Of a DNA stretch of 37,781 nt, positions 427-700 are shown piece by piece. Origin of the DNA: an uncultured Chloroflexota bacterium (lineage in GTDB: Bacteria; Chloroflexota; Anaerolineae; Anaerolineales; UBA4823); NCBI GenBank assembly GCA_903871905.1, contig CAIQIV010000058.1, positions 1 through 37,781 on the forward strand, written 5' to 3'. The notes below the pieces were generated by a model. It saw nothing but the letters and a program-made list of their open reading frames with translations, was not told the origin of the DNA and searched no databases. Every line of letters starts with the position of its first letter. Positions within the stretch are counted from its first letter, which is position 1. Made by a program: the position numbers and the translations under genes.

Positions 427-455
427 TTGACAAAATGGGTAGGCGGTTTTAGACT
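427..455 (+). promoter_or_regulatory. sigma-70-type promoter of the metG leader
   Basis: TTGACA at 427-432 is a perfect -35 box. A 17-base spacer leads to TAGACT at 450-455, which matches the -10 consensus at four of six positions. Transcription should start near 462, giving a leader of about 240 bases before metG. Confidence 0.7.
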
Positions 456-482
456 CTAGGTACTTTTCTCAGGTTAAAGGCT

Positions 483-593
483 ATGAACGGAACGGTTTCC
501 AGCTCTTTGTACGATTTACTGGGTATGCGCAAAATGGCCATGTCTGAGCGCGCCGGTCGCTGGGCAGCCTTGAATGCTGAAAAGGTGAGCTGA
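483..593 (+). CDS. possible Met-rich leader peptide of metG (36 codons)
   Basis: A 36-codon ORF lies between the promoter and the terminator hairpin upstream of metG. After the start Met it has three more Met codons close together, at 525, 534 and 540 (local peptide GMRKMAM). The gene downstream encodes methionyl-tRNA synthetase, so clustered Met codons would be a natural sensor of charged tRNA-Met. The ribosome site is weak: AAAGG sits only two bases before ATG, with another AGG about ten bases upstream. The segment 561-570 inside this ORF can pair with the 5' arm of the terminator. Whether it is translated cannot be decided from sequence alone. Confidence 0.45.
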   Translation: MNGTVSSSLYDLLGMRKMAMSERAGRWAALNAEKVS

Positions 594-647
594 ACTTTTC
601 TGCAAGATAATCTCCAGGCTGTCCATTTTGGGACAGCCTTTTTTTTT
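561..647 (+). promoter_or_regulatory. terminator/antiterminator pair (attenuator) before metG
   Basis: The terminator is a perfect 8-bp stem, GGCTGTCC at 617-624 with GGACAGCC at 631-638, loop ATTTTG, followed by nine T at 639-647. The upstream segment 561-570 (TGGGCAGCCT) pairs with 616-625 (AGGCTGTCCA) over ten positions with one G-U. That pairing uses the same 5' arm and so excludes the terminator. This is the arrangement of a transcription attenuator. No T-box consensus was seen. Confidence 0.65.
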
Positions 648-700
648 GAACGGATCTTTGCGCTATCCCAGGATAGCAAACATTCTCTCGGAGGTATTCC

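Follow-up and report, generated by a model that had tools for sequence, protein, structure and literature searches.

A probable Met-rich leader-peptide attenuator upstream of metG in Anaerolineae of the Chloroflexota

How is metG, the gene for methionyl-tRNA synthetase, controlled in an uncultured bacterium of the Anaerolineales? The question is raised by the beginning of contig CAIQIV010000058.1, which was analysed as a single stretch of 37,781 nucleotides (the window). The ORF of another gene occupies the start of the window and runs to 408; it is followed by the promoter and leader of metG, where a short ORF containing several Met codons precedes an intrinsic terminator. A preliminary description had interpreted this arrangement as ribosome-mediated attenuation. 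The present analysis supports that reading, since the Met codons, the antiterminator segment (A), the terminator and their spacing are conserved: metG is very likely controlled by a ribosome-mediated transcription attenuator that senses charged elongator Met-tRNA, although a response to methionine supply is unproven. The relevant features of the window are the following.

427 to 455, + strand: leader promoter of the sigma-70 type, TTGACA-17-TAGACT; the type also lies 5′ of the leader ORF in most loci of the window's family
483 to 590, + strand: leader ORF of 36 sense codons, MNGTVSSSLYDLLGMRKMAMSERAGRWAALNAEKVS, with ATG at 483 and stop codon TGA at 588-590
525 to 542, + strand: three in-frame Met codons (525-527, 534-536, 540-542), the putative regulatory codons; Met enrichment is kept in relatives
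561 to 570, + strand: segment A, TGGGCAGCCT, the putative antiterminator arm for 616-625, based on pairing score, folding and the metG-specific pattern of A plus terminator
616 to 647, + strand: intrinsic terminator with arm B (616-624), loop, arm C (631-639) and a T run to 647; hairpin of -17.0 kcal/mol
690 to 694, + strand: Shine-Dalgarno sequence of metG, GGAGG, read from the sequence
701 to 2488, + strand: metG, the controlled gene, encoding methionyl-tRNA synthetase; identity to full-length family relatives is 67-80%

When the sequence was re-read, the coordinates previously assigned to the promoter, ORF, Met codons, segment A, terminator and metG were all found to be correct, and the ribosome site of the leader ORF is indeed weak. 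The promoter (TTGACA at 427-432, a spacer of 17 nt, TAGACT at 450-455) matches 10 of 12 positions, a score that also arises by chance; nevertheless, this promoter type is kept in relatives. Segment A, TGGGCAGCCT, and AGGCTGTCCA (616-625) form 10 paired positions, one of them G-U, and the terminator consists of AGGCTGTCC (616-624), a loop of 6 nt and GGACAGCCT (631-639), with nine perfect pairs and T residues up to 647. The overall fold of the leader is not unusually stable (z = -0.20), which is no argument against an attenuator.

Conservation of the leader and its restriction to metG

The preliminary description had proposed looking for the leader ORF and the pairing in related genomes. The 400 nt 5′ of metG were inspected in 30 loci of the window's family (f1), and the counts for a sister family (f2) comprise all 23 loci that could be parsed; relatives that carry names are MAGs of Anaerolineales, Anaerolineaceae, Thermoflexales and Promineifilum, which places the window in the class Anaerolineae. 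The outcome favours the attenuator: Met codons, segment A, terminator and spacing are kept, and the remaining leader is scrambled. A Met-rich mini-ORF, a segment that lies inside this ORF or overlaps it and pairs with the 5′ arm of the terminator, and the terminator itself are present at 27/30 f1 and 23/23 f2 metG loci. In the 27 f1 loci, a short ORF with 2-7 internal Met codons is followed by a GGRCAGCC-like segment and then by a GGCTGTCC / GGRCAGCC terminator. As the gene further upstream varies among f1 genomes, the leader unit travels with metG. The exceptions in f1 are L008 and L020, which lack the leader ORF, and L024, which lacks the Met run. L020 retains a terminator-like hairpin directly 3′ of the upstream gene and L008 only a remnant, which suggests a secondary loss of control. 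The Met-rich leader is therefore dispensable, being missing in these few members and in much of family f3.

Enrichment in Met codons was compared with shuffled sequences. In stretches of 12 codons without a stop, the highest count of in-frame ATG averages 3.67 in f1 (shuffles 1.60) and 3.96 in f2 (shuffles 1.47); 33 loci mostly of other classes show no enrichment (1.24 versus 1.25). Within leader ORFs, which were picked from the position of the promoter, without regard to Met content, the ATG triplets fall into the reading frame and the other two frames in ratios of 92/7/4 (f1) and 110/4/5 (f2), or 202 in frame against 20 out of frame. The automatic picking chose a wrong frame or gene in L003, L015, L030, L031 and L052, and the loci were re-read by eye. 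Met is the most frequent leader residue (15.3%). The peptide as such has no relative with E < 0.5 in the 37 other genomes of the family, by which a conserved protein is ruled out. Met codons kept in an otherwise free sequence are thus the mark of regulatory codons. They persist across the class Anaerolineae, and the pairing sequences vary between families: 15 of 30 sampled Anaerolineae families have at least one member with at least three in-frame Met codons per 12-codon stretch. Among the 33 loci mostly of other classes, L206 alone reaches this value. This locus (genome G558, family f108) lies outside Anaerolineae, and on inspection a Met leader, MMHMTDPAWRAT, and then a terminator were found 5′ of metG.

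The arrangement is also specific to its gene. A search for the A..B..C pattern in 38 genomes of the family gave 21 matches, 19 of them at metG, and a reversed control pattern gave none in the same genomes. Another match, on a second contig of genome G013, belongs to the same leader. The match off metG (G017, L253) was rejected as a plain terminator 3′ of another gene. The parts, their conservation, the phase of the codons and the specificity to metG are hence established. With regard to what defines a leader-peptide attenuator, a short ORF with several cognate codons is present, as the Met codons are in frame and conserved (translation itself is inferred), and an intrinsic terminator lies between this ORF and the controlled gene.

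Competing hairpins and the position of the ribosome

In an attenuator, one arm of the terminator must also serve in an antiterminator. In the window, A:B pairing scores 26.5, whereas shuffled sequences average 16.4 (p = 0.02). The mean score is 23.4 in f1 (shuffles 15.7; p ≤ 0.05 in 19/25 loci) and 22.8 in f2 (shuffles 15.4; p ≤ 0.05 in 15/23 loci), so that 34 of the 48 f1 and f2 leaders exceed their shuffles and the requirement is met. Segment A of f2 reaches past the copy of arm C (e.g., GCCGAGTGGAAAGCACGTT with AACGGGCTGTCCATTCTGC) and is therefore more than a duplicated terminator arm. Furthermore, A and B change together between families (in f20, TGGCGCGGCT pairs with AGCCGCGCCG). The search for covarying stems suggested earlier had a divided outcome: weak covariation is seen in the flanking A:B pairs of f2, and none that is significant in the flanks within f1, where the core is conserved. 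The two folds of the window are mutually exclusive and nearly equal in energy (A:B -31.2, terminator -32.9 kcal/mol). In most f1 leaders the terminator is favoured at equilibrium once arm C is present, and the choice must therefore be kinetic.

The spacing of the parts is likewise established. Between the last Met codon and the start of segment A lie about 20 nt in f1 and about 10 nt in f2; in f2 the segment overlaps the stop codon. The distance from stop codon to terminator has a median of 24 nt in f1 and 22 nt in f2 (IQR 21-23). Judged by geometry and folding alone, a stalled ribosome would not cover A in f1 and would leave part or all of it free in f2, and a ribosome near the stop codon would cover A and spare the terminator, as expected of an attenuator. 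The earlier claim that stalling at 525-542 frees 561-570 agrees with this, on the same limited grounds. The preliminary description had counted the position of the antiterminator segment within the ORF against the model. This doubt is answered by the stop-to-terminator spacing of the relatives, in which such a position is the rule: A lies inside the ORF because a ribosome near the stop codon must cover A yet leave the terminator free.

Its second doubt, the weak ribosome site, is answered as well, since such sites are widespread and, in many relatives, translation begins at the predicted 5′ end of the transcript or close beside it. The start codon lies 6-8 nt past the -10 hexamer in 21/21 f2 loci and so coincides with the expected transcript start or adjoins it; the leader ORF of f2 is thus probably leaderless, with the start codon at the 5′ end of a transcript whose start is itself inferred. 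Distances of 6-9 nt are found in 8/26 f1 loci, two of which are wrong-frame picks, and the ATG of the window, 27 nt past the -10 box, does not qualify as leaderless.

The default state was modelled with the RNA taken only to the terminator loop. Without a ribosome, A:B forms in 19/25 f1 leaders (0.86 for the window) and in 7/23 f2 leaders; placing a ribosome on the third-last Met codon raises these figures to 23/25 and 20/23, respectively. A strong protector (1:2) hairpin thus seems mostly to be missing in f1, and untranslated RNA of the window's family should therefore probably read through too. By this folding, f2 is closer to the trp scheme, in which A is sequestered by upstream RNA.

The mechanism proposed from these data would run as follows. 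RNA polymerase would start near 462, and a ribosome would trail it on the mini-ORF. With ample Met-tRNA, the ribosome would pass the Met codons and cover A while B emerges; with A occluded, B would pair with C and transcription would stop near 647. With scarce Met-tRNA, the ribosome would halt at 525-542 with its front edge short of A, and A would be free to pair with B once B is made, leaving C unpaired and metG transcribed. In the window's family, RNA that is never translated, for instance where initiator Met-tRNA is missing as well, should also be read through. In the absence of expression data, the site at which transcription starts, leader translation, termination in vivo and the response to methionine are all inferred. 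A sensor of Met is subject to a peculiar counterpoint: it requires Met-tRNA to start its own leader. Readthrough without translation in f1 may be sensible for such a sensor, since a severe shortage of Met-tRNA would also block initiation at the leader. A more speculative idea, possible but rather doubtful at present, is that the attenuator senses both roles of Met-tRNA, with a lack of elongator (stalling at internal Met codons) and a lack of initiator (no start of the leader) each freeing the antiterminator. The untranslated state would then be the on state, the reverse of trp, and the f2 leader, at the extreme 5′ end of the RNA, would probably be served by 70S ribosomes.

Alternative explanations and other leaders at metG

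The formation of A:B without a ribosome in most f1 leaders would also suit an RNA-only switch, T-box-like or a methionine or SAM riboswitch, that controls the same terminator independently of translation, and T-boxes do control other synthetase genes in these genomes. RF00230, with its conserved antiterminator bulge, has matches at pheS, both here and in three relatives (E 1e-16 to 1e-20). Relatives also have such matches (E 1e-11 to 1e-14) at loci of the ileS/valS type, a naming that rests on family PF00133 only. The clear synthetase-gene T-boxes (L178, L183, L184, L185, L275, L276, L278) score 61.7-92.5 bits, below the Rfam gathering score of 93, and are therefore missed by a default Rfam scan. 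At the metG loci, however, neither a T-box (RF00230) nor any other Rfam family was detected even at permissive thresholds, and a T-box or riboswitch at metG was rejected. Together with the lack of a conserved aptamer-like sequence, the in-frame conservation of the Met codons and the constrained stop-to-terminator spacing, this makes control by RNA alone very improbable.

Beyond f1 and f2, other arrangements are found upstream of metG. Several other families have a Met run (often ATGATGATG), then GCCGTGG, a GAGG-loop hairpin, CCACGGC and a terminator, CCGCCAGC-CTC-GCTGGCGG. In this second architecture, GCCGTGG opposes CCACGGC and the CCTC of the terminator matches the GAGG loop. It rests on inspection by eye only, because RNAalifold applied to 19 leaders of other families returned just the terminator; the automatic A:B score, significant in only 3 of 26 leaders outside f1 and f2, does not support it either. 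In family f3, L041, L043 and L045 have short Met leaders with a CLPEA end, and in L041 and L043 a TGCCAGA-loop hairpin is followed by a CTGGC terminator, a third pairing scheme recognized by eye. The leader of L089 (f20) contains 11 internal Met codons in 44, partly near-repeats of ATGATGCGCGCGATGCG.

In other Chloroflexota classes (f72 and f82; L196, L197, L199, L200, L203, L218), a distinct mini-ORF with the conserved peptide end W.GLRLTARGFMA lies directly 5′ of metG. A profile of this motif, searched in 15 genomes, gave strong matches in 8 (E 4e-6 to 6e-18), all adjoining metG, and in several cases the stop codon lies within a GGCGG/CCGCC inverted repeat. This mini-ORF may be an arrest-type leader, and its existence lends some substance to the idea that the stall in Anaerolineae is also set by the nascent peptide instead of the supply of Met-tRNA. 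Little credence can be given to this explanation, as the Anaerolineae peptide is conserved in Met content only, which fits codon sensing. Least credible is a functional small Met-rich protein (e.g., metal-binding) placed before metG by chance: the mini-ORF has its own promoter and terminator and up to 11 internal Met (L089), but its peptide sequence is unconserved, it always lies 5′ of metG while the further-upstream gene varies, the unit pattern is absent elsewhere in the family genomes searched, and the A:B pairing is given no role.

Comparison with known systems

For other amino acids, leader-peptide switches are a familiar device; one for methionine is apparently unrecorded, although an earlier prediction, for instance in the survey by Lopatovskaya et al. 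(2010; doi 10.1134/S0026893310010164) of attenuation across the operons for amino acids and aminoacyl-tRNA, is not excluded. No Met leader or metG attenuator was found in the literature searched, in which subscription coverage was limited, and in actinobacteria a survey of methionine operons detected no conserved element (PMC1262725). For synthetase control in Chloroflexota, only T-boxes are reported in the accessible literature, those of Chloroflexi at ileS and trp genes (PMC2494555). If the attenuator proposed here is confirmed, methionine, the initiating amino acid, would become one more amino acid sensed through leader peptides, and Chloroflexota would gain a case of a synthetase gene under leader-peptide control. 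Within the same genomes, metG would use a leader peptide and other synthetase genes T-boxes. It would also pose a paradox that can be tested, as a detector of scarce Met-tRNA could not itself be translated without Met-tRNA.

Among synthetase genes, pheST of gammaproteobacteria is a known case of control by a leader-peptide attenuator. Predictions of such attenuators exist for the Streptomyces genes trpS and leuS (PMC1262725) and, in bacilli, for paralogues of hisS (PMC2965389). The metG leader shares with all of these a short ORF rich in cognate codons 5′ of the matching synthetase gene, and an antiterminator and intrinsic terminator with one arm in common. It differs in the amino acid (methionine, not Phe, Trp, Leu or His), in the phylum, in the antiterminator arm inside or overlapping the end of the ORF, in the protector hairpin apparently mostly missing in f1 and in the leaderless start inferred for f2.

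Leaderless short ORFs with polycysteine runs are known from mycobacteria (Canestrari et al. 2020, cited in PMC13236596), and candidate Cys leaders appear in PMC1262725, where no obvious intrinsic terminator is reported. Runs of a single amino acid in a short upstream ORF are common to these and the metG leaders, and f2 also shares a probable leaderless start. The polycysteine ORFs belong to cysteine genes with no obvious terminator reported there, and the metG leader of the window is not leaderless.

In the trp attenuator of E. coli, ribosome stalling releases an RNA arm able to compete with the terminator, and untranslated RNA terminates via the 1:2 hairpin. The liberation of a terminator-competing arm by a stalled ribosome would be common to trp and the metG leader; in f1, however, untranslated RNA is predicted to read through. 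The protector hairpin is typical of trp, and the definitions of attenuators in the accessible literature do not demand one. Finally, the T-box (RF00230) and the metG leader would both control synthetase genes via antitermination, but the T-box, unlike the metG leader, senses uncharged tRNA directly and without translation.
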